Source of the DNA: Polytrichum commune
Taxonomy: Eukaryota > Streptophyta > Polytrichopsida > Polytrichales > Polytrichaceae
Assembly (NCBI GenBank): GCA_950295325.1
Contig: OX485806.1
Location: 47,301,169-47,365,168 of the forward strand
Length of the DNA: 64,000 nucleotides
Reading direction: 5' to 3'
Below the pieces are notes generated by a model. It worked only from the letters and a program-made list of their open reading frames with translations, had not been told where the DNA came from and did no database searches. Numbering within the stretch: position 1 is the first letter of the stretch; each line of letters starts with the position of its first letter. Below are positions 4,219 through 27,033 of the stretch, in pieces. Position numbers and translations under genes: made by a program.

Positions 4219-4224
4219 CTGAGA

Positions 4225-6894: not shown

Positions 6895-7189
6895 GGACTC
6901 TAACTGCTAATGAGAGGAGGGGGCATTAACCATGCCCCCAACCTCCGTGCTAGTACTAGAGTCTAGCATTTCTTCATCACCACCAATATGTGATGATGAA
7001 GCCACCATCAAAGGTGAAGAAGCCAAAGCAGTATAAACTCATTGAGCTCGGAGCTCCTCCATCACCTGCTGATCGAATCGAAAAATTCGTTCGGCTTCTC
7101 CAACCATGACCTCAATTTCTTCCTCCATGGATGTGGACCGCTATGCCCCCTGACCAGAATCCTCTGCCCCCAGAGACAACAACTGGTCA

Positions 7190-8170
7190 CCATGATGCCG
7201 TTGCAATGCAAGGCATAAACCAACAGTCCACACCATGGTATGAAGATCCATGGCTTGGCCCAACACGAAGCGTCGTTGACCCTCAGAAAGGCCAGGAGCT
7301 GCAGTGGTGCCAGTGCGGAATCCCATGGCCCGCTTTCGTTCGTCAGCCAATGGTTCGGTGTGGATTTTGGTGTTAGCATCCCACACCATACCCAGCCCTC
7401 GATCGCGGAAGGCGAATGACTGTGGAAACGTCATAAACGTGGGAAATGCCCGCTGTGGTGCCACCACTTTGTTGACCAATGCCAACGGGGGTAAATCATC
7501 TCAAACAACCGGCAAAGAGGTCTAGTTTGGATCCAAGATGTCATCCACCTTTTGATCAAAAGGTGGAGGCACTGCAGAAAATGCTACAGCTAAGGTAGAT
7601 GACGATGTGAGGTTGGTCCAAATCCACCGAGGCCGGTGGGCATAAGAACCAATGCTCACGGCATCCACAAAAATGGGGTCTCCAAGGTGTTGACAAACAT
7701 AATGACCTCCTTCCAATACCTTGTCCCGAGAGTCTCCCAACAAAGGTACATTCTCGAAGATATACCCTGGAGGGGAAGGTTGGTGGGTAACCACCACTGC
7801 ATAAGCCGGATGAGGTCCCAGAAAATGCTAGACCTTGGATCCTCTAAACCTCGGCCTGTTCTAGCACGTGAGTGGCCTTGGCATGGCCAACCCGCAACCA
7901 CCATATCCACCGGACCCAAGTGTTGTAAGTCGGCCTCACTGATGAGTGTAACATCACGAGGGAGACGTGAAAAACACCCACGAATGGCACTCGGGTGTAA
8001 CTGCTGGGGGTACAATACCATCATGTGAAGATGGTGACAAGCCACACGGGTGGACACCTAAGAGTTGTCCACATAGACATATTGTTTGGCCGTGAGGCCA
8101 ACCTCCAATACGGCTGCTAATCATGTGCCGATGCCCCCAAACAACTCCACCAAAGTAATCCCAGTGTTTG
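7190..8170 (-). pseudogene. GypA-1 DNA cytosine-5 methyltransferase domain
   Basis: The domain lies between protease and RT. Motif I is ITLVELFGGIGT (about 8165-8121), the SAM-binding loop. Motif IV is VVAGWPCQGHSRAR, with the catalytic Cys codon at 7881-7883, followed by GRGLEDPRS. Motif VI is IFENVPLLGDS and a motif VIII-like segment is YAHRPRWIWTNL. Near the end are ADERKRAMGF and RRFVLGQAMDL (motifs IX-X). The order I-IV-VI-VIII-IX-X is collinear as in DNMT3-type enzymes, not permuted as in plant DRM. A TGA after GGIGT, a TAG just downstream and a frameshift near 7795 disable it. Known role of the family: transfer of methyl from SAM to cytosine C5. Its use in retrotransposition is inference. 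Confidence 0.85.
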
Positions 8171-9671
8171 GAGGGCGCCACAAAATAGGACGTGCCAACG
8201 TGGACGGAGTATCCGGTATAAATGGTGTGGTAAAACCGAGAGAGAGGACAATGTCCTCACACCTTCGGAATAAGCCGGCGGAATCACGCCACGGTGGTAA
8301 AGGGTCCTTGGGGTGGCATATCAAGGCATTCTTAGGTGCCATCTCTCGTGGGTCTTCAACACTCCCCATGAATGCCAGTGACTCCTCCAACAATGCGGAA
8401 CCATAATGCAAAGTATCCACAATAGCGCCACATCCAAAGACCATGGATAATGGTGCTATGGTCGCGGCCGCTGCGAATGCCACAGGAATAAGCTCCCTGC
8501 GGCCGTCCCCAGCTGACCAACCTGGTCGGATCCACGCCTCCTCAGTCCAGTTGTCCAAACCAAAGCCAAAAGGGTAAAATGCTTGCTGACCAACTAAAAT
8601 GTCAGAGTTGGTCGCATCCGTCACTGCATACCTAAGAAGAAGAAGAGCAGGTGGATCTCCAGGTTTCACTCGGAAGCTAAGCTGTAATAGCCCCCGTGTA
8701 TAACCTGTGGCCCGCTCCACGTGACCAACGGATGTGACAATGGTGAATGGACAGGGAGCCAACTCCTCGGCCGCCAATCCCAAGTCCTAGGCAAGCCTCT
8801 TGCTGATCATAACTGGTTGTGCCCCTGAATCCATCATCACACAACGGGGAGCAACTCGAGTGGCATTGCCCTCAGTCCGACTGACCACCAAAATGTCGGT
8901 ATCATTCACCATACGCATGACACCGGGTTGAATGCCGCGGTGCTCATGTGGAGGTCTAGCAACTACATCATACACATAAGCTGCTCCCGCAGATTGTGGT
9001 GAGTCATAAGACGTGGTCGGCTCCCTGTCATCTAAGGTGTGTGCGTCAAAAGATGCAATGGTCTCTACGGCAAACTTTGCTTGCCGTTTGGCCACTTCAT
9101 CGGGGTCTTCAGAAGCAAGGATGTCCGTGGTGGCTTGGGCCACGGTCAGAGAAGGTGAGGATGCCTTCCCTTCCAAAATCCTACCTGCTAAGTGGAAAAC
9201 CTTAGCAGGTTGGAACTCTGGCGATGACCACTCCATTACCGTGAACAAAGGGGTGTGCAACACTTTGGACATTGCCCCGAGCTCGTAAGCTATCCACAGA
9301 CTTCCTTGTGGTCGAGGGCATGGCTCGTGACACGGATTGAGCCCGTGTCACCGCTGCGGAACTCAACATTTCTCCCGAGGCTCCGAACATATAATAATTC
9401 GGAGTGGAAGAACTAGCCTTAGCGGCGGAGGAGGATGGTGAGTCTAAGATTTGGCCGGATGACGCTAAACTTTTGAACCTCTCCTCCAATGCTCCAATCT
9501 TCGCCTCCAACGTCTTCTCCCGATCAAAAGAAGGACGTTTCTCTGGAGGGAGAATGAAGCAGTTCTCCACCGTGTGATTGTTCCGCCCACAATGGGAACA
9601 CGTCAACTGCTTGGATAAATGTTTACCCGCCCCCTTCGTCAAATCCTTCGCGGGAACAAATGGTTTCCACT
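8121..9671 (-). pseudogene. GypA-1 Gag C-terminus, aspartic protease and linker
   Basis: The 5' frame (9642-9202) holds one CCHC knuckle, CSHCGRNNHTVENC, followed by a Ser-rich tail with a short helical segment (EAKIGALEERFKSL). A shifted frame (9272-8121) holds the retropepsin-like active site CVMMDSGAQPVMI and, later, ATNSDILVGQQ, the second half of the protease fold. These are followed by a linker of about 130 residues that runs straight into methyltransferase motif I. A TAG at 8787 sits where GypA-2 has CAG. The first CCHC knuckle is missing because the copy is interrupted at 9672. Confidence 0.75.
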
Positions 9672-10394: not shown

Positions 10395-12217
10395 TGTCGT
10401 GTAAATACCGATCGTGTGTCACTGCAGCTCGAATACCAACCACCACTAACAAACAACACTAAAACATTGCAAGGTCACACATGAACAACACATCTCGACA
10501 GAAGAGGAAGAGAGTAGAACACTCATAAGAGCTCTAAATCTCTCTTCAAATGCATACAATTAGTCAAGCCATCTCTCACTCCACCAAAGGAGAATCCAAG
10601 AGTGTAAGTAGAGGAAGAAGAACTCAAGATTTATTGCAAAATCATGCAATCTATACCTCACATAAGCTCTCTCCACACACTAACTCACAAGACTTGTGTG
10701 AGGCCAAACCTACCACCCTTAAGCGTCCTAGTCCGGGTAATAGGTTTGGAGATCACATGTGTAACATAACAACTTGTGGTAACATGGGATGTACATTCTA
10801 CCTTGATGAGTTTCTAACTTAATTCAAATCATGACATTTTATTAGTGTGAACCTTGTGGATAGACACATCCTTGGCTTTTTCCAGAGTCCACCCCACTGC
10901 CTTTGCCACGCATGCCTTCAATGATTTCCCCTTTGCAACTTTGGTTCTGGCTATCGATTTTTCACTGGTGCATAAACCTCGTTGAGGCTATAATGTGTTG
11001 ATTCCATGAGGCTCATAAGTTTTAATACAAGTGTTGAAAAACACTTATATAACTTAACATTACCTCATTTTCCACAAGTCCCTCACAAATCCTTCCCAAT
11101 TTCATATCATAATGCAACCACTAAACCAACTAGCCTAACTCTCTAGCCTAACTAATTAGTCTAATTAACCATCCTCACTAACTAGTAATAACTTAGCTTG
11201 TCGATCTAGCTTAGATTCGGGAGTGTACAACTAGTTGGAACTAGATTCCTCCTTAACCCATTCGCTAAATCTAACTGGCTCTACTTAACCCAGCCGCTAG
11301 GCCTAACTAGCCTCCCTCTTCCACCCAGCCGCTAAGCCTAACTGCCTCCAACTTCAAACCAGCAGCTAGCCTAAGTGGCCTCCCCCTTAAAGCCTACAAG
11401 GTTGAATGCTTTAAATCTAACATGAATCTAGATGCTACAATTTTAAATGTCATAATTCTAAACACTATAAATTTAAATGATATAAGTGTAAATTCTATAA
11501 GTTGAACACAACGAGCTAAGCTCTAAATGCCTCAAACCAAAGACTACTCCTAACAAGTATCAACTAACTTCAAGGCTAATTAGTCTTGGTTCTTCACCTT
11601 GAGACCTTGCACACACACGTGCTTCTTTCTTGCTTCCCACACATCCACACTCATAACACGTGGGGTGCCAAGGAGCACCAAAAAAAAAAAAAAAAAAAAA
11701 AAAAGTGAGGATTATATAGTGCGGTGAAAGGGAGTAGGTGAGCACCCCCAAGGCTCAAGATAAACCTTTTGATCATTTCCTACTTTGTAGGCTCTCATCC
11801 TATCATTTAAGCCTTCAACTCTTAAACCAACAACATAGATCCTAATTCAAACATTTAACTCAAGGAGCCACCCTTGGTTCACCACACACTATGCTCACCT
11901 AATTAAGGAACTTTCTTCACACCGCTAAACTTCTAATCAACCTAAGGTCTAAACATAACTTCACTCAAGCCTCACTCTTTTTATATTTTTGTGAATAATC
12001 ATAAAACATAAAAACATAACTTCTAATAGTTTCAAAGGGTTAAGAACACATGTGGGCACCATTTTGGGCTCACAACTTGACTTGGCAAAAATGCCAAGCC
12101 AAGGAGGAGCTCCTCACTTAGGAGCCTCACTTTCCAAAACTAAGGTTCATCCATCCAACTCTAAATGGATGAAGCCCAACGGATAAGGTGCGGCTGCCGA
12201 CATCGCATACCATGACA
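10395..12217 (-). mobile_element. GypA-type LTR hosting a nested solo LTR
   Basis: On the minus strand it starts TGTCATGGTATGCG at 12217 and ends ACACGACA at 10395, giving TGTC..GACA termini. About 340 bp (10499-10696 plus 12075-12217) match the starts of the GypA LTRs at 21341, 25479 and 60174. The remaining 1.38 kb is a nested solo LTR with its own target duplication. It lies directly 3' of GypA-2 and is probably that element's 3' LTR, but it is much shorter than the presumed 5' LTR and no target duplication was found. Confidence 0.5.
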
Positions 12218-12322
12218 GCTGTCGTGTAAATACCGATCGTGTGTCACTTCAGCTCGAGTACCAACCACCACTAACAAACAACACTAAAACATAGCAAGGT
12301 CACACATGAACAACACATCTCG
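10396..12322 (+). repeat. 102-bp direct duplication bracketing the GypA-type LTR
   Basis: Segments 10396-10497 and 12221-12322, both starting GTCGTGTAAATACCG and ending ACACATCTCG, differ at only about three positions and lie in the same orientation on the two sides of the LTR and its nested insertion. This is too long for an LTR-element target duplication. It may be the end of a neighbouring LTR or a small tandem duplication. Confidence 0.75.
10697..12074 (-). mobile_element. Solo LTR of the GypB family, TSD acttg
   Basis: The 1378-bp segment has ends TGTGAGG..GGGCTCACA and is flanked by the perfect 5-bp duplication acttg (10692-10696 and 12075-12079). The empty site is preserved in the sister LTR near 21193-21210 (aagacttgacttggc). 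It contains no coding sequence and a 24-bp A run near 11680, so it is a solo LTR left by recombination. Confidence 0.88.
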
Positions 12323-12599
12323 TCATGCCCCCCTTAGCTGACTATGGAGTCCCGCCAAGCAGCTAGGACCCAGTCAATCCAAGGGTATGAATAATGAAAG
12401 ATTGCTCCGCAACCAACTAATGTATCGAACGTCATTCCAAGGACCTGTAGGCTGGGTGCAATGTGAGCCCCATCCTTAATCGCCTCTGATGGTTGGCCAT
12501 CAGATTCCACAGAATTAATTTCACCGCCTTATGTCGATTGCGTTTATAAGCCATAAATCCTCATCTTTCATTTGGGCAGGCACAAGATGATGAAAACTA

Positions 12600-12990
12600 C
12601 ACATGATCATTAAGGACGATTGGTGGAAGTACCAAGTACCGAAGATCCTCGATAGTGAGGACAACTCCACTGTCCAGATGGTAGAGAAGTCAAGGGTGGC
12701 CTCAAGCATGCCATGAGCCAACCACGTTGACACTGATCACACAAGAGCATAGTAGCCGCTCCTTTCTTCTCTCCACACACAAAACATGGAAGATCCACTG
12801 GCACGACGGCCAGTTCATGATGAACTGTATCCTTAATGGATAGATGACATGGGGCATAGTTTTTGGAATGTTCGCGACATTCCCTGCCATCTTTGCCTTC
12901 CAACAACAACAAATCACTTTGCAGCACGTCTTTCACCCGAAGGATATTGCGCCCCACCTTGACATCCAATGTCGTAGGCGCCTCACGTTG
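12600..12990 (-). pseudogene. GypA-2 C-terminal PHD zinc finger
   Basis: After integrase and a spacer with NYAPCHLS, the frame 12969-12610 reads CFVCGEKKGAATMLLCDQC, then QRGWLMACLRPPLTSLPSG and QWSCPHY. Spacing matches the Cys4-His-Cys3 pattern of PHD fingers: CxxC, 11 residues, CxxC, 4 residues, His position, two residues, Cys, then a final CPxC pair. Two ligands are lost, His to Leu and the last Cys to Tyr, so this copy would not fold normally. The GPPL-like loop and conserved Trp make a PHD origin clear. PHD domains bind histone H3 tails in other proteins; targeting of integration is inference. Confidence 0.75.
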
Positions 12991-13158
12991 GAGATAAACA
13001 TAATTCCCCTATTGGAATCTCTGCAACTGAGGTCGGTAAGCACCACTGCGAATGCATGCATAACGCAATGTGTTACGGTGCTAAGCAATGAACAAATTCT
13101 CTATGGCCATAGGCATGGCCCTCTAGAAGAATTGAGCCCGCTCCTGCAAACATTGTGC

Positions 13159-14178
13159 CTAAATGTTTGGGTCATCCAAGTCCACAACATGAGCTAATTT
13201 TTCCCGAATAGAACTTGGGAGTATAGGCTCACGTCCATACAACAACTGATACGGGCTGTAGGATGCCAAAGAGGCCTGCCTACTAAATCGATAGCCCATA
13301 GCAATCCAAGGCAACATAAGGTCCCAATCCCGGTGGCTTCCCCGAAGTAATCCATACTTCCTCAAGCCACGCTTGGTTGTCTGAACAACCCGTTCAGCCA
13401 AGCCATCTGCCTCCGGATGATCCCGAGAGGTGGTGCGGTGATCTATGAGCGCCTTAGTGCATAACTCCTCAAAAGCACCAAGGAACTCCCTCCTTTGGTT
13501 CGTCAACACCTCAGCCGGTGCTCCAAAACGTGCCAACACACGATCCAAAAAGGCGGCCGCGGCCAACTCTGCAGAGTTTTGGGGTAAAGCAACAAGCTCG
13601 ATCCACTTGCTAAAATGCTCCACCATCACCAAAATGTACTTTGCTCCACATGGTGTAACCGCCAACAGCCCTGCAAAGTCCAACGACCAACGGTAGCCCA
13701 ATCCCATGATAGGTAAGGGTTGTAACTGAGGTGACAAGGTGTTAAAGCTAGACCTGACCCGGTCACAAACTTCACACCTCCCGACATAGGCAGCCACCTG
13801 CTGATACGTGCCAGTCCACCAATATTGGCCACGCAACATCGAATGTGTCTTGCGTATGCCAAAATGCCCAAGTTCCTCGTGCACTTGTCGCACCAAAGAG
13901 GCCCTCTGATCCTGCCTACGAACAATACGCCTTGTCCCATCCGGCCACAATCGAAATAACAAACCGTTCTCCCAATGGAACCTTGTTATTTGATGTCCAA
14001 TCCTGTCCCTTTCTATTACCGATGTAGACAAAGGAAAGGTACCCTGTTGAAGCTTATGCAATACAGGAAGATCCTCCCATATATCTACAATAGCTTGAGG
14101 CCGATCAGTCTCATCATCTGAGCCATGTATCGGAATCTCAACAGATGCACCAGAAAATAAAGTGAGGTAGGCAGCCAC
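13159..14178 (-). CDS. GypA-2 integrase
   Basis: This 339-codon open frame is the longest intact piece of integrase in the family here. The zinc-binding HHCC module (HEELGHFGIRKTH, CEVCD) is followed by the core with first Asp in WSLDFAG and Glu in HPEADGLAERVVQT. The second catalytic Asp is replaced by Asn (VLTNQRREF; the other two copies have VLMD), a change expected to abolish strand transfer. The C-terminal part keeps YQLLYGREPILP. It is part of the polyprotein: the same strand continues from RNase H above and into the PHD tail below. Confidence 0.85.
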   Translation of the reverse strand: MAAYLTLFSGASVEIPIHGSDDETDRPQAIVDIWEDLPVLHKLQQGTFPLSTSVIERDRIGHQITRFHWENGLLFRLWPDGTRRIVRRQDQRASLVRQVHEELGHFGIRKTHSMLRGQYWWTGTYQQVAAYVGRCEVCDRVRSSFNTLSPQLQPLPIMGLGYRWSLDFAGLLAVTPCGAKYILVMVEHFSKWIELVALPQNSAELAAAAFLDRVLARFGAPAEVLTNQRREFLGAFEELCTKALIDHRTTSRDHPEADGLAERVVQTTKRGLRKYGLLRGSHRDWDLMLPWIAMGYRFSRQASLASYSPYQLLYGREPILPSSIREKLAHVVDLDDPNI

Positions 14179-14199
14179 GTGCCAACCTGGAACCGCCTC

Positions 14200-14750
14200 T
14201 CAATCACAATCTCCATGCCACCTGGCCCCGGTCAAGTCTTCATCTGAAGGACTTGGATTGCGTGAGAGTCCATTTGCATCCATGTTGGTAATCCCAGCAC
14301 GGTGTACCACCTCAAAGTCATACTCTTGGAGCAACAAAACCCACTTGGCAAGCTTGCCAGTAAGCTTATCCGACTCCATGAGCCACCGTAACGGCTGATG
14401 GTCACTCACTAAACTAAAGTGCCGACCAATGAGCAATAGCCCATACTACCGCCAATGCTTCTCCCTCGTAGGATGAATAATTAGCCTCCGCCGTGTTATT
14501 GCTTCGCAAAGCGTAAGCAACAACATACTCCCGGCCAAAATCATCCTTATGAGTGAGAACTGCTCCCAAACCCAATGAACTCCAATCCGTATGCAACTGG
14601 AAGGATTTGGAAACATCCAGACATCGAAGCACTGAAGCCGCACCCAGTTTCTGCTTCAATGTCTCAAATGCTTGTTGCTGCTCACGACCCCAAGTCCAAG
14701 GTTGGTCCTTGCTCGTGAGAATGGTAAGAGGCTTGACGATCAAGCTAAAG
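14200..14750 (-). pseudogene. GypA-2 RNase H
   Basis: Two frames, 14743-14414 and 14436-14200, encode the gypsy RNase H: HTDWSSLGLGAVLT (catalytic Asp region), SYEGEALAVVWAIAH and SDHQPLRWLM. Compared with GypA-1 and GypA-3, about 20 bp around 14430 are missing (the FxPYxYGQ segment), and this breaks the frame. Confidence 0.8.
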
Positions 14751-14761
14751 TTCTTGACGAA

Positions 14762-15724
14762 TCAACAATAGTAATTCGCCAAGCCCAAGAAAGCACGAAG
14801 TCTCGGCACATCGACCAATGCCGGGATATTCTGCAAGGCGTCCACCTTAGCTTGTTGCACCCCAAGACCTCCTGGAATAATCATATGACCTAGATATGCT
14901 ACTCGGTCATGGAAAAACTTGCACTTGCCATGGTGCAAGCGCAATCCCCACCGCCGTAATCGCTCAAAAATGGCTTAAAGATGTTTTACATGTTCCTGTG
15001 GTGTTTTGCTGAAAATGATTACGTCATCAATATAACACCGAGCAAAAGGCAAGCCAAAGAGAACTTGGTCCATCACTCTCTGAAACTCAACATGCGCATT
15101 CTTGAGGCAAAATGGAAGAAACTTCCAATGGTATAGTTGATCCTTCCCATCATGATTAACTCCCCAAAATGCAGTCTTCACCCGATCTCACGTAAGTAAT
15201 GGGAGTTGGTGATATCCAGATCTCAAGTCCAAGGTGCTAAAGACCCGAGAAAATCCGATGGCATCGAGCAACTCCTCCGGGATTGGCATGGGATACCGAT
15301 CCGACTTGGTCTTCCGATTAACTGGATGGTAATCCCCACACATCCGTTTCTCCGTCCAATTGCCAAAGATATCCTTCTTTGATGGCATAACCGTAGCACA
15401 AGCATACACCCCGTTGGAAAATTCGATTAGCCCTGCTGCCAAGAGCTCTCGGCAACGAGCCTGAATGCCAATTCGCTCGGAAACACTGAGCCTGTAAGGT
15501 CTCCGAAAAATGGGATGATTGTCCTCCAACTGAATGTGAATGGGTTTTCCTTTATAACCTTCAAGATCCTGAAGGCTAAAAGCAAAACATCTACGGTACG
15601 AGCGAATAAATACTCGTACCTTCCGTGCCTCATCACCAGTGAGACGAGGGCCTAATTCAAGTGGCCAATCATCAAACTCTATAGTCTCCCTCTCCACCAA
15701 AAGAGAACCACCTGATGCTGGCAC
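14762..15724 (-). pseudogene. GypA-2 reverse transcriptase
   Basis: The frame 15724-15188 starts at the end of the linker and carries DDWPLELGPRLTGDEARKV, YKGKPIHIQLEDNHPIF, RMCGDYHPVNRKTK and LDLRSGYHQ. The next frame, 15181-14975, holds FCLKNAHVEFQRVMDQV and the catalytic YIDD (RCYIDDVIIFSK). A third, 14944-14762, carries the thumb segment HHGKCKFFHDRVAYLGHMII. The gaps between frames are small indels or stops. The polymerase catalytic aspartates are preserved. Confidence 0.85.
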
Positions 15725-15736
15725 AGACTCTAATTG

Positions 15737-17035
15737 CTACTGAGAGGAGGGAGCATTGACCATGCCCCCAATCTCGGTGCTAGTACTAGAGTCTAGCATT
15801 TCTTCATCACCACCAATATGTGATGATGAAGCCACCACCGGAGGCGAAAAAACCGAAGCAGTGTACAAATGTTGAGCTCGAAACTCCTCCATCACATGTT
15901 GCTCGAATTGAAAAATTCGTTCGGCTTCTCCAACCATGGCATGAATTCCCTCCTCCATGGATGTGGACTGTTGTGCCCCCTGACCAGAGTCCTCTGCCCC
16001 CAGAGACAACACTTGGTCACCACGATGCCTTTGCAATGAAAGGCATAAAGCAACAGTCCACACCATGGTATGAAGATCCATGGCGTGGCCCAACACGAAA
16101 CGTCGTTGGCCCTCAGAAAGGTTGGGAGCTGCGGTGGTGCCAGTGTGGAATCCCATAGCACGCTCCCGTTCGTCAGCCATTGGTTCGGTGTGGGTTTTGG
16201 TGTGAACATCCCACACCATACCCGGCCCCTATCGCGGAAAGTGAATGACTGTGGAAACGTCATAAATGTGGGAAATGCCCGCTGTGGTGCCCCCATTTTG
16301 TTGACCAATGCCAACGGGGGTAAATCATCTCGAACAACCGGCAAAAAATTCCGGTTTGGATCCAAGATATCATCCACCTTTTGATCAAAAGGTGGAGGCA
16401 CTGCAGAAAATGCTGCAGCTAAAGTAGATGACGGTGCGAGGTTGGTCCAAATCCACCGAGGCCGGTGGGCATAAGAACCAATGCTCGTGGCATCCACAAA
16501 AATGGGATCTCCAAGGTGTTGACGAACATAATAATCGCCTTCCAACACCTTGTCCCAAGAGTCTCCCAACAAAGGTACATTCTCGAAAATATACCCTGGA
16601 GGGAAAGGTTGGTGGGAAAACCACCACTACATGAGGCGGATGAGGTCCCAAAATATAGTAGACCTGGGATCCTCTAGTCCTCCGCCTGCTCCAGCACGTG
16701 AATGGCCCAGGCATGGTCATCCTGCAATCACCATATCCACTGGACCCAAGTGTCGTAAGTCGGCCTCACTGATGAGTGTGACATCACGAGGGAGACGTGA
16801 AAAACACCCATGAATGGCAGTCGGGTGTAACTGCTGAGGATACAACACCATCAACTGGTGAAGATGATGACGAGGCACACGGGTAAACACTTGAGAGTTG
16901 TCCATATAGACATATCGCTTGACTGTAAGGCCAGCCTCCAATACGGCTGGTAATCCTGTGCCAATGCCCCCAAACAACTCCACCAAAGTAATCCCAGTGT
17001 TTGGAGGGCGCCACAAAATGGGGCGTGCCAATGTG
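15737..17035 (-). pseudogene. GypA-2 DNA cytosine-5 methyltransferase domain
   Basis: Motif I (TLVELFGGIGTG) and the following YVYMDNS lie in one open frame with the protease. The motif IV region reads MVIAG, then TGA where Trp stands in the other copies, then PCLGHS, with the catalytic Cys codon at 16711-16713. The Gln after Cys has become Leu. The frame 16572-15892 contains LGDSWDKVLEG and SYAHRPRWIWTNL (motif VIII-like). A 1-bp deletion near 16233 moves the last part (MADERERAMGF, RRFVLGHAMDL, motifs IX-X) to the frame ending at 15737. Beyond lies a linker of about 90 residues to RT. The catalytic core is collinear with DNMT3-type enzymes. Confidence 0.85.
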
Positions 17036-17904
17036 GATAGACTGTCCGATATGACTGGTGTGGTAGAACTGAGAGAGTGGAGCATGTCCTCACACTGTTG
17101 GAACACGTTGGAGGAATCACGCCACGGAGGTAGAGGGTCCTTAGGATGGCGTACCAAGGTATGCGTAGGTGCCATCTCTCGTGGGTCTTTAACATCCCCC
17201 ATGAATGCCAATGACTCTTCCAATAATGCGGATCCATAAGGCAATGTATCCACAATAGCACTGCATCCAAAAACCATGGATAATGGTTCAATGGTGGTGG
17301 CCGCTGCAAAGGCCACATGAATAAGTTCCCTACGGCTGTCCCCAGCTGACCAACCTGGTCGGATCCACGCCTCCTCAGACCAGTTGTCCAAACCAAAACC
17401 GAGGGGGTAAAGTGCTTGCTGACCAACTAAAATGTCATAGTTGGTCGCATCCGTCACCGCACACCTGAGAAGAAGAGGTGCAGGTGAATCTCCAGGCTTC
17501 ACTTGGAAGCTAAGCTGTAATGGCTCCCGAGTATAACCAGTGGCCCGTTCCACGTGGCCAATAGATGTGACGATGGTAAATGGGCATGGAGCCAAGTCGT
17601 CGGTTGTCAACCGCAATGCCTGCGCCAACTTTTTGCCGATCATAACAGGTTGTGCTCCTGAATCCATCATCACACACTGTGGAGCAACTCGAATAGGGTT
17701 GCCATTAGCCCGACTGACCATCAAAATGCTAGAATCATTGACCATCCGTACAACGCCAGGTCGAATGCCTCGACGCTCGCGAGCGGGTCGAGCAGCTACA
17801 TCTGAAAGATAAGCTACACCTGCGGAGGCTGGTGAATCATAAAATGAGGTGGGCTCTTGGCCATCTAAGGTGTGTGCCACTCCCGCTAAGGTGATGATGA
17901 CCAT
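16717..17904 (-). CDS. GypA-2 protease-methyltransferase fusion frame (395 codons)
   Basis: A single uninterrupted frame carries the aspartic-protease active site (CVMMDSGAQPVMIGKKLAQ), the second protease half (ATNYDILVGQQALYPLGFGL), a linker with PREMAPTHTLV and PLPPWRD, then methyltransferase motif I (ITLVELFGGIGTG) and the segment up to MVIAG. This is the clearest proof that the methyltransferase belongs to the retroelement polyprotein between protease and RT. The frame ends at a TGA in motif IV where the other copies have TGG. Residue spacing to motif IV (about 80) fits C5-methyltransferases. Confidence 0.88.
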   Translation of the reverse strand: MVIITLAGVAHTLDGQEPTSFYDSPASAGVAYLSDVAARPARERRGIRPGVVRMVNDSSILMVSRANGNPIRVAPQCVMMDSGAQPVMIGKKLAQALRLTTDDLAPCPFTIVTSIGHVERATGYTREPLQLSFQVKPGDSPAPLLLRCAVTDATNYDILVGQQALYPLGFGLDNWSEEAWIRPGWSAGDSRRELIHVAFAAATTIEPLSMVFGCSAIVDTLPYGSALLEESLAFMGDVKDPREMAPTHTLVRHPKDPLPPWRDSSNVFQQCEDMLHSLSSTTPVISDSLSTLARPILWRPPNTGITLVELFGGIGTGLPAVLEAGLTVKRYVYMDNSQVFTRVPRHHLHQLMVLYPQQLHPTAIHGCFSRLPRDVTLISEADLRHLGPVDMVIAG

Positions 17905-18062
17905 TCCATCGCTGTGAACAAAGGGGTGTGCAACACTTTGGATGCCAAAGTGTGCACCACATCAGTCACCGGATTTGAAGCCTCCAAGCTCGAATGACGA
18001 GCACTAATAGATTCGGAAGCATCAACCAATCCAAAAGACAATGGCAGACGTGCATGGCCAAT

Positions 18063-19400
18063 CTAATCCGCGGGACCATTGTCCCGAACACGTAAGCTGT
18101 CCACAGACTCCCCTGTGGTCGGAGGCGTGCCTCGTGACACCATTTGAGCACGTGTCACCGCCGCGGAACTCACCACTTGTCCTGAAGCTCCGAACATAAA
18201 ATAATCTGGAGTGGATGAACTAGCCTTAGTGCCAGAGGTAGAGGGTGAGTCCAAAATTTGGCTGGATGATGCCAAAGTTTTGAACCTCTCCTCCAACACA
18301 CCAATCTTCGCCTCCAACGTCATTTCCCGTTCGGAAGAAGGACGTTTCTCTGGATGGAGAGCAAAGCAGCTCTCCACTGCGTGATTGTTCCGCCCACAAT
18401 GGGAACACTTCAACTGTTTGGGTAACTGATTACCCGCCCCCTTCGCCAAGCCCTTAGCGGGAACAAGTGGTTTCCGCTTCGGAGCAGTGACGGTCTGGGC
18501 TTGCCTTTGCTTCGAAGGACAATCCTTCTTAGCATGGCCCGCCTGCCCACAAGACCAACAATGCAAGGTCTTGTCCACCTCTGCCTCCGCCAACCCCGCA
18601 GCCGCAACCGGAATCTTCCGAGATTTGCTAGAATCCACTAGCATGGACACCAAATCAGTGGCGCCGTGCTGACACAAAGCACGATCACACTGCTCAACAA
18701 TGGCAAAAACTTCCACAAGTGTCGCTCGGCCACCATGATCCATGATGATCCTGGGCAAAGCCAAATCAATGAGGCGTTTATCAATCTTTGACAAAAACAC
18801 CTTTACCAACTGGGTCTCGGCGAAAACACCTCCAGATTCCCTGGCAAACCTCGCCAACCTCGTGTACATGGTACGAGGTGTGTTATCTTTCTCGCGTCCA
18901 TATTCCTCCTCCAAATGGAGTTGGAATTCCTGCAGAGGATCAAAATCCGGCGGAGCTCCTAAAAAAGCTAATGCCGCCTGGGTAGCCTGGGCATAACGTG
19001 ACAGTGGAAGTATGAGGCTCGAAGTACTTGCTGCAGCGGGAGCAGGACCCGTAGCCCTCGGCTCACCATGAGGAGCTCCCTTCACATCCACCATAGAACC
19101 TCCCTCCGGTACCTTTGACTTAACCTCAGGAATGGCCATCAAACTGGAAGTTGCGCCTTCCTTCAATGCGGACACCAACTCAACCCGAGTCTCCCAGTAC
19201 CGCTCCACTTGGCATCCGTCCATTGCTCATAGATCTGGAGAGCTTCGTGTTCCAAATGCTGTGGTAGAAGCTCGAACGCATACCAATCGTTGAAGTTGGT
19301 ATTGCGTTGACGCTTCTCCCTCATCCGTGTTTTGAATCGAATTTTCCAATATTGCAGGGAAATGGTCCCCGCTCAACCAGAAAATCGGTCCCGGATGGCG
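18063..19400 (-). pseudogene. GypA-2 Gag polyprotein
   Basis: The main frame, 19223-18063 (386 codons), contains a capsid-like retrotransposon Gag segment (EYGREKDNTPRTMYTRLARF, FAETQLVKVFLSKID) and two CCHC zinc knuckles, CWSCGQAGHAKKDC and CSHCGRNNHAVESC, followed by a short helix (EAKIGVLEERFKTL). The N terminus (EKRQRNTNFNDWYAFELLP) lies in another frame above 19223, so a frameshift separates it. Gag packages the element RNA; the knuckles bind nucleic acid. No chromodomain or other domain is seen in Gag. Confidence 0.85.
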
Positions 19401-19609
19401 CCTTGCGTCTTCTCCTTCATCTCGTCAAAGGATCCCACCTAAAGGACGTGAGACCGAGTGGCAGTCCCCCACGCCAAAATAGGCTGAAAAGCCTCGTCGG
19501 GTGCTACCACGGGTTCACTGTCCAAAAGGTCCGAAGATCGACCTTGAGATGATGCCGGAGACGGAGAACGATAATGTTGGCTCCGAGTTGTAACCATAAA
19601 CCCACAATG

Positions 19610-21341
19610 GATTGGTCACTGGAGCCAACAACCTAAACTAATATGGTATTAGGGTAAAGGCAACCTGCCCCTGCAACCACCACCAAATCTTATGGTCTGC
19701 TGGTCATCAATCCAGCCTCACCATAAGAGAATACAAGCACCGCCCACTTGGTGCACATACAAGGGTCTCGTCGGTCATTACTCCGACCTCACCCCCACAA
19801 TACCCTATCACAAACTAGGACAACACAAAAATGGGACAATGTTGGAAAACTTCAACACAACAGCCCGCCACGGGAGAAGGTACCACAACAAAATACAAGG
19901 AACAATGCAATAACAACACTGAATCCTCTTCCCCAAAACAACACTTAAACATAAATTGAAAGCGACCGCGACCAACCGGCACCCGCCTGCGGTTGGTGGT
20001 CAAAATGAGGAGCCCTTGTTGCTTAAGAAAAAGAAATGCTACCTATGCACATCTCTCATCTTCCCACCACAACCTAAGAATCCCTCATCACAAGAATGTT
20101 GGGAATATGTGTTGACAAACACAATTCGACCTTAATAATAATTTATTTTAGGCCGAACGGAATTCCACATGCTACCCAATTCCCAATGGCATTCCCCTCG
20201 GAAATTTCGTACAACACAACCTCCAAATAAGAAATCCCAAATGTTTTTTTTTAATATTTCAGAAGAGCTTAGGTTTTTTTCCTTGTGTCCTTGATTAATG
20301 AGCCCAAGAAATTAACCTCATAGAGAGAAGAGAAAAATTAGAAGTTGAAAGAAAACATGAAATAAATAAATAATTAAATCCGGTTTTTATTAATTAATAT
20401 ATTAATTAATTAAAACAAAATAAAACAAAATAAAAATCTACCTCCGTTAGCAGCGGAATTGGGTAATGTGCGCGCCTGCTACCTTCCTTGGATGTGGTAG
20501 CCGCTAAGGCTCTATCTCCGGAATCATTTCTCAGGCTCCCTCTTCTGGCCTGCTGCCTGCCTGCCATGGCCTGCAGTCTACATGCTCTGGCCTACTGCTG
20601 CCGCGAGCCGCTAGGCACGGCAGCAGGTCCGACAGCAGCAACTGTAGCAGGGACAACAGCAACAGCGACAACAAATACCGTTTTTTTTTTTTTTTTTTTT
20701 GGGTCAAAAACTTGATCCCTTTTGAGGATCAAGAATGCCCCCACAACTTTCACTTCACAAATTCATGCTTATGGGCAACTCATGGCAAGAAATTTCGTGT
20801 AGTATTTAGAGATTTCTCACCACAGTTCAAAATGATGTGTAAACTCCACAAGCACATTTTTTTCTTCTTGTTGCTCCGCTAATCCGCGATGTTTGTCGTT
20901 TTCCACTCCACAATCCCGCCATCACTTGTCCTCATACTCTTTTCTTGAGTGTTACAACTCAAGATTTGAAGAAAAAAAAAAAAGGAGTCATGCATTCTTG
21001 CCAAGTGAGAAGGAAGAGAGTAGAACACTCATAAGAGCTCTAAATCTCTCTTCAAATGCATACAATTAGTCAAGCTATCTCTCACTCCACCAAGGGAGAA
21101 TCCAAGAGTGTAAGTAGAAGGAGAAGAACTCAAGATTTATTGCAAAATCATGCAATCTACACCTCACACAAACTCTCTCCACACACTAACTCACAAGACT
21201 TGACTTGGCAAGAATGCCAAGCCAAGGAAGAGGCTCCTCACTTAGGAGCCTCATTTTTCAAAACTAAGGTTCATCCATCCAACTCTAAATGGATGAAGCC
21301 CAACGGATAAGGTGCGGCCGCCGACGCCGCATACCGTGACA
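19610..21341 (-). mobile_element. GypA-2 5' LTR and leader (left limit uncertain)
   Basis: It starts TGTCACGGTATGCGG at 21341. The first 340 bp match the LTR starts at 12217, 25479 and 60174. The inner part (20085-20160) matches the same position of the GypA-1 5' block (23640-23740), and both lead into a shared leader before Gag. The middle (20160-20830) differs between the two copies. I could not place the 3' end of the LTR or a primer-binding site with confidence. A run of about 20 T lies at 20682-20701. Confidence 0.55.
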
Positions 21342-22139: not shown

Positions 22140-22896
22140 TTACGAGGTCGAGACTTGGAGGCATGAATCACACTGCTCCACAATGGCGAATGCCTCTACG
22201 AGTGTCGCCCGACGACCAAAGTCCATGATGATCATGGACAACGCCAAATCAAGGAAGGGTTTGTCAATCTTTAACAAAAACACCTTCACCACTTGACTTT
22301 CCGCAAACACACCTCCAGATTCTCTAGCAAACCTCGCCAACCTCGTATACATGGTACGAGGTGCATCGTCCTTCTCCCGTCTAAAATCTTGTATCCGCTG
22401 CATCTGGTCCCGACGGAAACCTTCGTATTCCTCATGGAAATGCAGTTCAAATGCCCACAACGGCTCAAAAACTCGCGGAGCCCCTAAAGAGGCTAAAGCC
22501 GCCTGGGTAGCCTGGGTAGCCTGGGCATAACAGGAGAATGGGAGAATGGGAGAATGGGCTCGACGTACTCGCCACAGCGGGAGTAGAATCCTTATTCTTG
22601 GGTTCACCAAGAGAAACTCCCTCCTCATCCACTACATATACTCCCTCCGGCACCTTCGACTTAACCTCAGGGACGGCCATGAAACTGGAAGCTACGCCTT
22701 CCTTCAATGCGGATACCAACTCAACCCGAGTCTCCCAGTACCGCTCCATCTGGCGTAGTTCCATCCAATGAGCCTCCGTCCACTGTTCATAAGTCTGGAG
22801 GGCCTCGTGCTCCAAGTGTTGGGGCAGTAGCTCGAATGCATACCAGTCATTGAAATTGGTATTTCGTTGACGCTTCTCCCTCATCCATGTCTTCAA
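22140..22896 (-). pseudogene. GypA-1 Gag N-terminal part
   Basis: Frames 22896-22465 and 22628-22140 encode the Gag N terminus (EKRQRNTNFNDWYAFELLPQ, YWETRVELVSALKEG) and the capsid-like part (FHEEYEGFRRDQMQRIQDF, APRTMYTRLARFARESGG, IVEQCD). They overlap in different frames because of an indel near 22545, where the short repeat gagaatggg is present three times. The last residues after EQCD are foreign. Compared with GypA-2 it has an extra FRRDQMQRIQDF segment, which GypA-2 has lost. Confidence 0.8.
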
Positions 22897-23789
22897 CCAA
22901 ATTTTCCAATCTTGCAGGGAAATGGTCCCCGCTTGACCATAAAATCAGTCCCGGATGCCGCCTCACGTCTCCTCCTTCATCTCGTCAAAAGATCCCACCC
23001 AAAGGACGTGAGACCGAGTAGCAGTACCCCACGCCGAAGTAGGCTGAAAAGCCTCGTCGGGTGCTACCACTGGTTCAACGTCCAAGAGGACCGAGGATCA
23101 ACCTTCCGATGATGCCGGAGACGGAAACGATAATATTGGCTCTGAGTTGTAACCATAAACCCGCAATGGGTTCGGTCACTGGGGCCAACAACCTAAACTA
23201 ATGTAGTGTCAAGGTAAAGGGTCAAAAAGTGAAAGGCAACCTGCACCTGCAAACACCACCAAATTTATGGTCAATTGGTCATCAATCTAGCCTCACCATA
23301 AGGAAATACAAGCACCGCCCACTTGGTGCACACACAAGGGTCCTGTTGGTCATTACTCCGACCTCACCCCCACAATATCCTATCACAAGCTAAGACAACA
23401 CAAAAATGGGACAATGTTGGAATACTCCAGCACTACAGTCCGCCACAAGGGAAGGTACCAAAACAAAATACAAAGAACAATGCAATAACAACACTGGATC
23501 CTCTTCCCCAAAACAACACTTAAGCAAAAATTGAAAGCGACCGCAACCAACTAGCACCCGCCTGCAGTTGGTGGTCAAAATGAAGAGCCCCTGTTGCTTA
23601 GGAAATGGAAATGCCACCTATACACATCTCTCCTCTCTCCACTACTACCTAAGAATCCATCCTTATAAAAATGTCGGGAATATGTGTTGACAAACACAAT
23701 TCGATCCTAATAATAATTTATTTTAGGTCGAATGAACATTCCACCGAATCTCCAATGTGTCGTATTACTACATATTGTTATGTCATGTA

Positions 23790-24145: not shown

Positions 24146-24751
24146 TCATCAACTAAAGTCAAATATATAAAAGTCCACTCTTTCTCTCCGGATTGAAATT
24201 GAAATTGAAATTTTCTATCAACGTTTGAAATATATAAGCAACAAAAGTCAGAAAACAAAGCTCCATAAAATTGAACAAACTCCGGAGAATAATTTCAAGC
24301 TCCACGTCCACCAATTTAATTGTCAAGCTCCAAGTGGGTTTTTTTTCTTGGACTTCAACATAATTCAAAGTGATGTGTAAACTTCACAAGTAAACATCTT
24401 TCTTCTTTTTGCTCCGCAAATCCGCGGTGTTCTCGCTCCGGAACTTCACAACTTTGTAACTTCTTGTCTTCACGCCCTCTCGCGCGTTACATCTCAAGAG
24501 TGAAGAAGAAAACATAAAAAGTGAAACACATTCTTGCCAAGTGAGAAGGAAGAAAGTCAAACACTTATAAGAGCTCTAAATCTCTCTTCAAATGCACACA
24601 ATGAGTCAAGCTATCTTTCACTCCACCACGGGAGAATCCAAGAGTGTAAGTAGGGGGAAAAGAACTCGAGATTTATTGCAACAATATGCAATCTTCACCT
24701 CACACAAGCTCTCTCCACACACTCACTCACAAAATTTGATTTGGCAAGAAT

Positions 24752-25345
24752 CAAGGTTGTCTATTGTGTCGTGACGGAGGCTAATATCAGCATAATGTCG
24801 TGCCGTCACGACACGTATCCGTCACGACATTATGCCGGATGATGTCTTTATCCTGAAGGACTTGAATTTTACCGAATTTTGTGTGTAATTACATTACCCC
24901 ATTTCGGACACGTAGGATGTAAGATGTCCACGTGTGATGACATGTCAGCAAAGTAGAGGTAAAATGGGGGAAAATTTACTAGCGCCCGTCCGCCCCGTTC
25001 CCCCCCCCCGGTCCGTCCCCGTCCGCTCCATTCCCCCCCTCGTCCGCCCCGTTCCCCCCGTACGCCCACCCCCACCCCCGTCCGCCCCACACCCTCCTTA
25101 GTCATATTTTACTACTTTGATTTTAACAAAATGATAAACAGAATGGCAAAATGGTTTACCTGGCGCTAGGCATATCCACGTCCACGTCGGCCTTTTCTGC
25201 CACATAGGACGCCACCTTGGCAAGGTGAGTATTTTACCCACCCTACTAGCTTCCCCCTAGGTTGACCCTACGTGGACCCTATTGTGTCGTGATGGAGGGG
25301 TCCGTCACGACACGACACGTCATGACGTCGGGATAGACAACCCTG
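24752..25345. mobile_element. hAT-like MITE, 594 bp, TSD gcaagaat
   Basis: Terminal inverted repeats are CAAGGTTGTCTAT at 24752-24764 and ATAGACAACCCTG at 25333-25345 (one mismatch). They are flanked by a perfect 8-bp duplication, gcaagaat, at 24744-24751 and 25346-25353. The CARGG start and 8-bp duplication are hallmarks of hAT elements. Subterminal GTCGTGACG words in both orientations near each end resemble hAT transposase-binding repeats. There is no transposase, so it is non-autonomous. The undisturbed LTR sequence is seen at 21208-21222. Confidence 0.88.
24982..25095. repeat. C-rich tract inside the MITE
   Basis: About 110 bp are made of CCGTCC, CCGTTCCCCCC and CGCCCC words with nearly no A on the plus strand. 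The complement is a G-rich tract with many runs of three or more G. Open frames across it are compositional artefacts. Confidence 0.7.
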
Positions 25346-26039
25346 GCAAGAATGCCAAGCCAAAGAAGAAGCTCCTCACTTAGGAGCCTTCCTCTCCACA
25401 AATAAAATTCATCCATCCAAATCTAAATGGATGAAACCCAACGGATAAGGTGTGGCCGCCGACACCGCATACCGTGACAACTGAGGGTGAATGCGGCGAC
25501 CGAGGTGACTCCCCTAGTATCCCCTTCCCCTCGATTACCCCAATCGATCCCGAGTTGGCTTTTCATTGGCGTCTTTGTCCCAGCTCTGGTGGAACATATT
25601 GATGCTCATGGACTTGAATGCTTCCTGAAGCCTCATCCAAGCTCGCGATCCTCCCACTGGGTCAAATCCAAGTAGCTTCGCGCTTAATCCGGTGTCAGCA
25701 CCGAGATCTCTCCCCTCTCTCTTCGATTGAAACTCATGGGAGCCAGCGCCACACATACCCTTTGTTCTACCCCTGCTTAAGCGGCAAGGCCACTTACCAA
25801 AGATTGGCCCAGTGATTTACTCCTCCCTCGCTGTTGATCGTTTTTCCTAGCGAAGAACGATGAGGCAGAAACCTTGAGCCAGGAGGAATTCATGCCTTCA
25901 TTGCCATCCGATAGGCCCTAACTCCCGTTCTCTTGTAGTTCCTATTTCTCTAGAGATTCACTGTGTTCACTCCACCTTGTTACCTTGCATCGTTAGCGCA
26001 CCAGCTCCCCTTGTTTCCCACCGATCTGCATCCCACTAG

Positions 26040-26692
26040 CACACCCTTTTCTGGTCATGGTGGTGGATAAAGTAGTGCCCAATGTACTGGTTGATGAAGG
26101 GAGTGGGCTAAACATTTTACCAGAGCACACTATGAAGAGGTTGGGCATTAGCCTAACAGGTCCATCACCTTTCATTATCAATATGGCAAATTAGAGTCCG
26201 GCGGTACCTTTGGGAATAATTAAGGATTGTAGAATTAGTACAAGGGGAGAGGAATATGTTGTCATTTTTCATGTCATCAAGATGCATTCCGACAAGGATA
26301 CCTTTCCCATTTTGTTGGGTAGGCTCTGGCTGAGAATGGCAGATGCCATAGTGGATTGGGGAGGAGCTAAGCCATCCATCACCTATGGTCCTAAGGATAA
26401 TAGAGTCAAGGTATCTATAGGGTCACTAGGTGGCTGGGTGAGGAAAGACATTGCTACATCTTCGGATGAAGAAGAGGATGATAAGAAGAGTGAGACATTA
26501 GTGGGAGTGGTTCAGTCAGGTAGTCAAGGAGCTGCGATAGACGCAAGAGTGGGTCATCTAGGTCCTAGTTTTTATCATTGGAATGACAATGGTGAATATG
26601 CTAAGTGGTTAAAAGATTATCCGAAGTTGGTGTGTGATGTGATGGTGACCTCTCACCATGAATACTTGAGAGATGATATGGATATCTCATAG
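26040..26692 (+). pseudogene. GypB-2 aspartic protease region
   Basis: From about 26055 the frame reads VMVVDKVVPNVLVDEGSGLN, then ILPEHTMKRLG, a retropepsin-like active site in the form LVDEGSG with altered spacing. A TAG near 26192 interrupts it. It continues as an open frame to 26692 with LLGRLWLRMADAIVDWG, which is the conserved second half of gypsy proteases, and an acidic Ser/Asp/Glu stretch. The following 26693-27033 is a further polyprotein spacer with stops. Confidence 0.65.
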
Positions 26693-27033
26693 ACGGAAGA
26701 ATATTCGTTGTTGGAGTCATGTGAGGTGCTTACGGAAGAGGAGTGGTTACAAGGAGGATTGACTCCATAGGTAGATGGGATAGAAGAACGTGCTGTGAAT
26801 TTAGTGCACATAGATGGGACTCATAATGACGAGACATTGCTTGAGGCTGCAAAGTTGGAGGAGCCCTTGCACTTCAAGACCACATCGACATGCATTCTAG
26901 TGGATCAAGATGTTAAAGATTATCCTAAGGTTCCTCCAGATTGGTATAGAAACACGACGGAACAAACCCATGTGTCTGAGGCGGACTGGAAGTATGTGGA
27001 GGTGAAAACTAGGAATAGGAAGGTAGGCAGATG

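Follow-up and report, generated by a model that had tools for sequence, protein, structure and literature searches.

A moss Ty3/gypsy-type retrotransposon family carries a DNMT3-type cytosine methyltransferase upstream of a putative leaky stop codon

The window analyzed here, a stretch of 64,000 nucleotides from the moss Polytrichum commune, contains three copies of a retrotransposon family, GypA, all read from the minus strand. One GRAS gene, judged on the best 120 of 439 matches, narrows the predicted "streptophyte-like" host to a moss. The main copy, GypA-2, has the following features.

10395–21341, minus strand: GypA-2 as a whole, organized A1-coding-B1-GC-A2-B2, starting TGTCACGG and ending TTTACACGACA, decayed
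21000–21341, minus strand: A1, the left terminal repeat, matching 12069–12217 (92.8%) and 10505–10696 (96.4%)
17892–19600, minus strand: gag part of ORF1, with zinc knuckles at about 18504–18572 and at 18333–18419
17359–17694, minus strand: aspartic protease, DSGAQPVMIG, 70% to the ORF1 protease of an open-frame relative
15974–17034, minus strand: cytosine-C5 methyltransferase, DNMT3-type by profile and predicted fold, broken by a stop at 16717–16719 before Pro-Cys and a frame break near 16225
16711–16713, minus strand: catalytic Cys codon
15731–15739, minus strand: ORF1/ORF2 junction UAG-CAA-UUA, a putative leaky-stop context
14879–15355, minus strand: reverse transcriptase (RT)
14320–14692, minus strand: RNase H, with a frame break inside
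13414–13911, minus strand: integrase, with H2C2 at 13750–13911 and the DDE core at 13414–13695
12649–12792, minus strand: PHD finger, 3′ of the integrase (PF00628 at 2.4e-10 on a relative)
12220–12322, minus strand: B1 repeat, joined to A2 by GC (GACA-GC-TGTC within 12214–12225)
10505–12217, minus strand: A2 repeat, in two parts (12069–12217 and 10505–10696)
10395–10497, minus strand: B2 repeat, 97.1% to B1, the right end of the element

The two other copies are broken.

3859–9612, minus strand: GypA-1, with the second zinc knuckle, protease (8526–8858), methyltransferase (7198–8162, Cys codon 7881–7883), UAG-CAG-UUA (6901–6909), RT (6049–6525), RNase H, integrase and the start of the PHD finger (3859–3990)
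55863–59943, minus strand: GypA-3, with methyltransferase (58577–59535, Cys codon 59251–59253), UAG-CAG-UUA (58276–58284), RT, RNase H and integrase

The original prediction had ended the element at 12220, but what ends there is B1, the first of the 3′ repeats; because A2 and B2 lie beyond it, GypA-2 spans 21341 to 10395. A foreign insertion of 1.37 kb (10697–12068) splits A2, and the flanking 4-mers, TACT and AACT, are identical at three of four bases. The Cys codons predicted in the three copies (7881–7883, 16711–16713 and 59251–59253) are all TGC when read from the minus strand and belong to AGWPCQ-like motifs. The predicted position of the methyltransferase, between protease and RT, holds for GypA-1 and GypA-2 but not for GypA-3, where gag and protease were not found by tblastn and similarity to ORF1 begins at residue 826, past the protease (two of three copies). 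Likewise, the 395 codons said to run on from the protease in GypA-2 exist as an ORF (16717–17904) reaching just before motif IV, but this frame ends in a stop that had gone unmentioned (16717–16719), which replaces the Trp directly before Pro-Cys. Each of the three methyltransferases is interrupted by stops or frame breaks. By Pfam, the GypA-2 ORF at 18063–19223 matched zf-CCHC at 0.0009, just under that family's own cut-off.

The protease-methyltransferase ORF of GypA-2, whose frame stops before motif IV, gave no Pfam match at 0.001, whereas the open ORF1 of a relative matched PF00145 at 8.9e-12, and the same relative carries RVT_1, RNase H, H2C2, rve and PHD. With the domain present in scores of copies, the prediction of a Ty3/gypsy family with its own cytosine-5 methyltransferase is borne out. 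Genome-wide searches returned at least 123 matches to PF00145 (123 scored of 353 candidates) and at least 106 to the window ORF; these copy numbers are lower bounds because the searches score the best candidates only. All eight PF00145 loci that were fetched (L001–L008) are GypA-type, as judged by the ORF1/ORF2 junction. From protease to motif III, 86 of the 106 listed ORF matches align in one piece, and 43 of these 86 lack an internal stop (hand count). Among four loci selected for long frames, ORF1 of 1386 codons (stop to stop) is open in L010, L011 and L012 and broken in L009, while ORF2, in frame after the UAG, runs uninterrupted over 1047 codons in L011 and over no fewer than 1011 in L010, up to the end of the stretch fetched; L009 and L012 have it broken. 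The domains stand in Ty3/gypsy order (gag with zinc knuckle, aspartic protease, RT-RNase H-integrase); the protease is weak by Pfam (PF13650 at 0.0014, under its own cut-off), but its DSGAQ motif shows the same D, G, A and Q in every one of the 13 rows of alignment A1. GypA is almost certainly a Ty3/gypsy-type element from a moss lineage, of the kind represented by KnitGypsy-Dnmt3 of Klebsormidium nitens.

Copies without the domain were not seen in searches starting from PF00145 and from the protease-methyltransferase ORF; this census began from the methyltransferase side, and relatives lacking the enzyme may exist. Annotated proteins from Marchantia, Riccia, Sphagnum and Closterium, as well as from unnamed sequences, have the domain beside protease, gag or RT; the named matches listed, one list being the best 120 of 144, include none from Klebsormidium. 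A scan of IMG/VR with alignment A1 gave 12 pattern stretches and no relative.

By profile and predicted fold, the enzyme is DNMT3-type, in keeping with the predicted likeness to published algal retrotransposon methyltransferases. A profile of nine retroelement domains, compared with 59 PDB sequences (none of them named as DNMT1 or CMT), scored DNMT3A at 3.3e-20 and DNMT3B at 7e-19, against 2.7e-9 for HaeIII, 2.9e-9 for DRM, 4e-8 for HhaI and 1.3e-5 at best for DNMT2. Foldseek with the predicted model (pLDDT 75.7, pTM 0.82) gave 192 matches at E ≤ 0.001, and the 50 shown are all DNMT3A, 3B or 3C entries. Motifs I, IV (PC), VI (ENV), VIII and X occur in canonical order; without the DRM rearrangement, and with the profile favoring DNMT3, a DRM-type enzyme was rejected. 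Methyltransferases of different subfamilies are about 60–64% identical. Summed dN/dS of the methyltransferase is 0.23 in subfamily A (five open copies), and in the young open copies of subfamily B pN/pS is 0.60 for the methyltransferase versus 0.14 for RT plus RNase H, these being pairwise sums uncorrected for shared ancestry of the copies; the subfamily B enzyme may now be only weakly needed, or fast-changing. Every comparison yielding a value gave a methyltransferase ratio below 1. In the 15 of 16 open B copies that passed a script filter, WPCQ is unchanged, motif I is changed in two, motif VI in one and motif X in one.

The stop between the two frames is conserved. Gag, protease and methyltransferase lie upstream of an in-frame UAG, and RT, RNase H, integrase and PHD finger downstream. 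All 51 distinct copies that were read have UAG at the junction, and all but one have UAG-CAR-YYA. The copies comprise 23 from one set and 28 further ones from 30 loci of a second set, which were picked by similarity to a 301-base query spanning the junction, a choice that favors agreement. In the 50 copies that have it, CAR-YYA survives a codon switch from Leu to Ser (UUA/UCA), and it is shared across the subfamilies with 60–64% identical methyltransferases. Of the 30 loci, 10 have open frames on either side of the UAG that reach as far as the locus extends. CAR YYA is essential for readthrough in TMV, for which 32% readthrough in plants is reported, and tobamovirus replicases use the same UAG plus CAR-YYA consensus to separate a plentiful product from the one that includes the polymerase (PMC2754532); in GypA, where readthrough is predicted from sequence, the stop instead divides gag-protease-methyltransferase from RT-integrase, in a retrotransposon. 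The GypA UAG is probably read through.

Repeat order was A1-coding-B1-GC-A2-B2 in four of four copies, with ends TGTC...GACA, and all four had 4-bp target duplications (TTAT, GAAG, TAGC and TCAT). With repeats split in this way, a plain two-LTR element ending at 12220 was rejected. A search for the 12-nucleotide initiator-Met tRNA primer site near the 5′ ends of the four copies gave no match with fewer than 4 mismatches. Because of this and the split repeats, GypA is classed as Ty3/gypsy by its domains and not by its termini. A DIRS element was also rejected: rve and H2C2 were found, no tyrosine recombinase family was listed, and target duplications of 4 bp are present, a feature that DIRS/PAT tyrosine-recombinase elements are not known to have.

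KnitGypsy-Dnmt3, compared here by its published description, shares with GypA the Ty3/gypsy domains, a DNMT3-type enzyme without rearranged motifs, the repeat order A-coding-B-A-B, multiple intronless copies and purifying selection, seen here in subfamily A (PMC5890265). Its repeat order was taken from the legend of Fig. 4c, the A-coding-B-A-B formula itself being written out for DIRS in that of Fig. 1e (PMC5890265). Its host is a charophyte alga rather than a moss, and its enzyme is placed in the Pol polyprotein ORF, whereas that of GypA lies on the Gag side of the in-frame UAG-CAR-YYA; GypA also has a PHD finger after the integrase, and a word search of the main text on KnitGypsy found no mention of PHD (PMC5890265). 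No methylation by the KnitGypsy enzyme could be detected in yeast, a result its authors call inconclusive (PMC5890265). CG methylation in yeast is described for enzymes of a related class carried by DIRS elements (PMC5890265). SymbioDIRS-Dnmt3 of dinoflagellates likewise combines a retrotransposon-borne DNMT3 with split direct repeats, but is described as using a tyrosine recombinase (PMC5890265), where GypA encodes an H2C2/DDE integrase and is flanked by target duplications of 4 bp. Chlamydomonas REM1, considered as possible kin, was unsupported in that role; PMC2774666 describes a chromovirus with a truncated integrase in reverse frame.

From this anatomy we infer a working for the element, to which as a whole we give a probability of about 60%. 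Ribosomes would mostly stop at the UAG, yielding a Gag-protease-methyltransferase product, and occasional readthrough would add RT, RNase H, integrase and PHD finger; from its position upstream of the leaky stop, the methyltransferase would therefore be made at a Gag-like rather than a Pol-like level and would enter the particle. RNA running from A1 to B2 would be copied, with the B1-GC-A2 junction, in which both element ends are joined, supplying the termini that the RNA misses. The integrase would insert the cDNA with a 4-bp target duplication, the PHD finger may help to choose the chromatin, and the enzyme would methylate CG in double-stranded cDNA, either ahead of insertion or during it, and a new copy would thus arrive marked. 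For cDNA as the substrate, taken by itself, we would accept slightly less than even odds. More speculative still is the reading that bryophyte Gypsy elements possess an epigenetic kit in which a Gag-side DNMT3, packaged at a structural and not an enzymatic dose, methylates the cDNA and the integrase PHD finger reads histone marks for site choice. Were it true, the element would itself determine how the DNA of each new copy is methylated and at which chromatin address it lands, and land plants, beyond algae and dinoflagellates, would host such elements.

Other explanations bear on separate steps of this working. ORF2 could be expressed by reinitiation, splicing or a second transcript, with the UAG not read through: start codons lie close 3′ of the stop (an ATG at codon 14 of ORF2 in L011, and in GypA-2 a GTG a few codons past it). 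Reinitiation, however, needs neither the shared frame nor the UAG in 51 of 51 copies nor the CAR-YYA in 50 of 51, and we consider these routes unlikely. That the methyltransferase gene fell by chance into one copy and was carried along as a functionless, decayed fossil would suit the broken state of all three window copies; we reject it as extremely improbable, since scores of copies have the domain at the same place, young copies have open frames, dN/dS or pN/pS is below 1 wherever obtained, and the same neighborhood of protease, gag or RT recurs in the liverwort, peat moss, Closterium and unnamed proteins.

The substrate of the enzyme admits two further readings. It might work in trans, not mainly on its own cDNA, and target the host genome or competing elements, whether to impose methylation on the host, to disturb it there or to silence the rivals. 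Isolated DNMT3 domains of dinoflagellate retrotransposons, when tested in yeast, do methylate DNA, both chromosomal and plasmid (PMC5890265), and a product upstream of a leaky stop would be abundant; but a particle-bound Gag fusion would mainly meet its own nucleic acid, the K. nitens methylome is land-plant-like according to its authors (PMC5890265), and nothing in the window speaks for trans action, which we regard as improbable. Alternatively, the domain may methylate RNA (the genomic RNA of the element, or tRNA) or be kept mainly as a structural or nucleic-acid-binding part, which would fit its place right after gag and protease and the weak constraint in young copies (pN/pS 0.60), and RNA methylation was raised for LINE enzymes by the 2018 authors (PMC5890265). 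The CpG observed/expected ratio fits this as well: it is 0.65–0.69 in these elements, 0.51 in another gypsy and 0.50 in a 25 kb stretch of the window, and because the elements have more CpG than either of these, any heavy CG self-methylation has not depleted them further. Similarity to DNMT3 far above that to DNMT2, and retention of WPCQ in all 15 open B copies, argue against an RNA or structural role, which we think rather unlikely.

DNA methylation is how hosts silence retrotransposons, and retrotransposons that carry a methyltransferase look self-defeating. What a transposon gains from methylating DNA becomes testable with a moss that has many copies, some of them young and open-framed, because some mosses are genetically tractable; the putative leaky stop and the PHD finger offer two concrete handles, on dose and on targeting, and annotated relatives are at hand in Closterium and in two species each of liverwort and peat moss. 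Methyltransferase-carrying retrotransposons have been described in dinoflagellates and a charophyte alga (PMC5890265), and a 2019 opinion paper held transposons encoding DNA methylases to be absent from land plants such as tracheophytes (PMC6338049). In the open-licence literature searched, the titles and abstract openings listed describe none from a moss or liverwort, and the listings and passages seen report neither a conserved leaky stop nor a PHD finger in such elements. The acquisition of a nucleic-acid-modifying enzyme by a plant Gypsy lineage has a parallel in an orchid Gypsy with an m6A demethylase domain; there the enzyme is an AlkB-type RNA demethylase encoded in an additional ORF, whereas GypA carries a DNMT3-type domain (PMC9289625).

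By its anatomy, GypA, a Ty3/gypsy-type family with a DNMT3-type cytosine-C5 methyltransferase, is securely placed as an element like KnitGypsy-Dnmt3 of Klebsormidium, with which it was compared by published description (de Mendoza et al., 2018, PMC5890265). The catalytic Cys codons predicted for the three window copies GypA-1, GypA-2 and GypA-3 were found on the minus strand (7881–7883, 16711–16713 and 59251–59253), with AGWPCQ-like sequence around each. All three copies are damaged, GypA-1 and GypA-3 by stops and frame breaks. The 395 codons described as uninterrupted in GypA-2 are present, but the frame is not intact: it ends directly before Pro-Cys at a stop (16717–16719) where relatives carry Trp. 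The order protease, methyltransferase, RT, claimed for every copy, is visible in two of the three, since similarity of GypA-3 to the open-frame ORF1 begins at residue 826, beyond the protease.

Terminal repeats (A1, A2, B1, B2) were read in four copies, all of which have the order A1, coding region, B1, GC, A2, B2, with the 5′ repeat A1 recurring as A2 near the 3′ end between two B repeats (105–107 bp, four copies). The GC spacer was seen in GypA-2 and in two copies elsewhere in the assembly, L014 and L016. Elements start with TGTC and end with GACA, target-site 4-mers are duplicated outside (TTAT, GAAG, TAGC and TCAT in four copies), and the B1/A2 junction, GACA-GC-TGTC, joins both element termini with two added bases. 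A1 and A2 are 98.4–99.6% identical, and the insertions are therefore recent. The 4-bp target duplications point to integrase-type insertion despite the DIRS-like repeats. For KnitGypsy-Dnmt3, the relevant section of de Mendoza et al. (PMC5890265) reports the same repeat order and Gypsy domains. Because the repeat plan of the younger copies is also found in GypA-2, the true element spans 10395–21341, and the boundary placed at 12220 in the original prediction was moved accordingly. The 4-mers flanking GypA-2 are TACT and AACT.

Features of GypA-2 and of a fourth, partial GypA copy
21000–21341, minus strand, A1 of GypA-2
12649–12792, minus strand, PHD finger of GypA-2, after the integrase
12220–12322, minus strand, B1 of GypA-2
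12069–12217 and 10505–10696, minus strand, A2 of GypA-2, split by a 1.37-kb insertion
10395–10497, minus strand, B2 of GypA-2
22158–23082 (gag) and 24355–25483 (A-type repeats), minus strand, fourth partial copy, gag and A-type repeats only

The PHD finger of GypA-1 is present and shortened. Within the insertion in A2 of GypA-2 (10697–12068), 11568–11860 matches 31462–31752 in inverted orientation at 73%.

Four further copies, L009–L012, were picked for long frames from the 408-Mb assembly (64 contigs, of which seven are chromosome-sized and the eighth is 0.147 Mb). In L010, L011 and L012, ORF1 (gag, zinc knuckles, protease and methyltransferase) is open for exactly 1386 codons stop to stop, followed by one UAG and, in-frame, ORF2 (RT, RNase H, integrase and PHD finger). 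The ORF2 frame has 1047 open codons in L011 and at least 1011 in L010, to the end of the stretch examined, and is broken in L012; both frames are broken in L009. Pfam matches in L011 were PF00145 (8.9e-12) and a weak protease match in ORF1, and RVT_1, RNase H, H2C2, rve and PHD (2.4e-10) in ORF2.

The ORF1 stop was UAG in 23 of 23 distinct copies (6 type B copies and 17 type A copies, the latter with the three window copies among them), and it was followed by CAR-YYA in 22, the exception being L022 (CAUUUA); L026, where an indel shifts the scripted reading by one base, was counted as a fit from its actual letters, TAG CAA TTA. All 30 type B loci read TAG CAATCA (two are duplicate copies already counted), for a combined 51/51 distinct copies with UAG and 50/51 with CAR-YYA. 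The hexamer differs among copies (CAA/CAG, UUA/UCA) without leaving the consensus, including cases in which the encoded residue differs. According to the passages of PMC2754532 on this site, TMV readthrough requires CAR YYA 3′ of UAG, and the TMV site gave 32% in a plant reporter. In the window the nine-base pattern occurred 8 times versus 3.7 expected (8 or more in 3 of 100 shuffles), so the pattern on its own is weak evidence and its constant position carries the argument. From these sequences, readthrough of the UAG is likely; if it works, the methyltransferase would be produced along with Gag, in excess of RT.

A profile built from nine retroelement methyltransferase domains and searched against PDB matched DNMT3A (3.3e-20) and DNMT3B (7e-19), and more weakly HaeIII (2.7e-9), DRM (2.9e-9), HhaI (4e-8) and DNMT2 (1.3e-5 at best). 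An AlphaFold model of the methyltransferase (pLDDT 75.7, pTM 0.82) has five low-confidence stretches, including residues 111–127, from the catalytic Cys onward, and the last 14 residues. When it was used in Foldseek, the best 50 of 192 matches (E ≤ 0.001) were all DNMT3A, 3B or 3C entries, some of them complexes with DNMT3L. A DRM-like enzyme was ruled out because the methyltransferase motifs lie in canonical order.

Among five open methyltransferase domains of subfamily A, dN/dS was 0.18–0.40 per pair and 0.23 summed; for three copies of subfamily B it was 0.42. Between A and B the ratio was 0.09–0.16; a dS of about 1.9 or more puts synonymous sites close to saturation, and one pair gave no value. 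When more young B copies were included (16 for ORF1, 15 for ORF2), pN/pS was 0.60 in the methyltransferase, 0.61 in the region preceding it and 0.44 in the ORF1 tail, versus 0.14 in both RT and RNase H; the first 60 codons of ORF2 gave 1.04 from very few changes. By these values the enzyme has been retained over the longer term, yet is now clearly under less constraint than RT. WPCQ was intact in all 15 B copies read, and changes were found in motif I (two copies), motif VI (one) and motif X (one). Identity between A and B is about 55–60% in the protease region, 60–64% in the methyltransferase and 80–89% in RT; the far greater divergence of ORF1 could reflect its fast evolution or recombination between lineages.

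Searching the genome with PF00145 yielded 123 matches, with 123 of 353 candidates scored, and searching with the protease-methyltransferase ORF of the window yielded 106, with 105 of 641 scored; both counts are lower bounds. By their ORF1/ORF2 junction, eight of eight inspected PF00145 matches (L001–L008) were GypA-type; host genes may be among the remainder. By hand count, 86 of the 106 were a single alignment from residue ≤18 to ≥385, protease through motif III, and 43 of these 86 had no internal stop.

A first protein search returned 22 relatives: 14 ORF1-like proteins (1228–1451 residues, 49–71% identity), three Marchantia polymorpha proteins (37–41%), one 2352-residue single-ORF Gypsy carrying a methyltransferase (34%), two proteins with RT, integrase and PHD (35–38%) and two shorter proteins. 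A profile search returned 144, the best 120 of which include Sphagnum troendelagicum, S. jensenii, Marchantia, Riccia sorocarpa and Closterium. One retrotransposon methyltransferase, P0025, is filed under a ‘Candidatus Obscuribacterales’ MAG and is probably plant DNA binned in error; domains of this sort may get miscounted as bacterial methylases. In a 55-row tree, both moss subfamilies fell within one clade of 24 (support 95/93), and Marchantia, Sphagnum and three further rows formed a separate, fully supported group; with an arbitrary root and a very long branch for the DNMT3A piece, the tree is uninformative on origin. Some relatives (P0021, P0023 and others) have WECQ rather than WPCQ at the catalytic motif: among 141 matched proteins it was readable in 90, and 12 of these carried Glu (9 AGWECQ, 2 AGFECQ, 1 GGWECQ). 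In P0023 the methyltransferase occupies another position, between RNase H and integrase.

Methylation of an element's own cDNA is an idea put forward for the DIRS enzymes in the pertinent part of de Mendoza et al. (PMC5890265) and is our best guess for the GypA enzyme; that part also reports no methylation by the KnitGypsy enzyme in yeast, a result its authors deem inconclusive. CpG observed/expected was 0.65–0.69 in the elements versus 0.50–0.51 around them, and with no CpG loss of this kind, heavy CG methylation over the long term, in excess of that in the surroundings, is not supported. A Gypsy element with DNMT3 and split repeats is a known kind. As far as our literature searches reach, the following are new: occurrence in a moss, in many young copies; placement of the methyltransferase before a conserved UAG-CAR-YYA, on its Gag side; presence of a PHD finger; and 4-bp target duplications alongside DIRS-like repeats.

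A second Ty3/gypsy family in the window (26210–29760, plus strand; 2750–3867, minus strand) has about 29% identity to GypA-type ORF2, and comparison with GypA-type proteins gave no methyltransferase match in it. A fragment of this family adjoins the PHD end of GypA-1 in opposite orientation. One GRAS gene gives good support for a moss as the host; assignment to Polytrichales (n = 7) is a guess. GRAS genes, which are numerous in land plants, gave 70 matches in the assembly (67 candidates scored). For one 671-codon GRAS frame, among the best 120 of 439 matches, other named species cover at most 68%, and those with at least 97% coverage were from the mosses Ceratodon purpureus (50% and 48%) and Physcomitrium patens (47%), the rest being further proteins, two of them at 99% and 93%.
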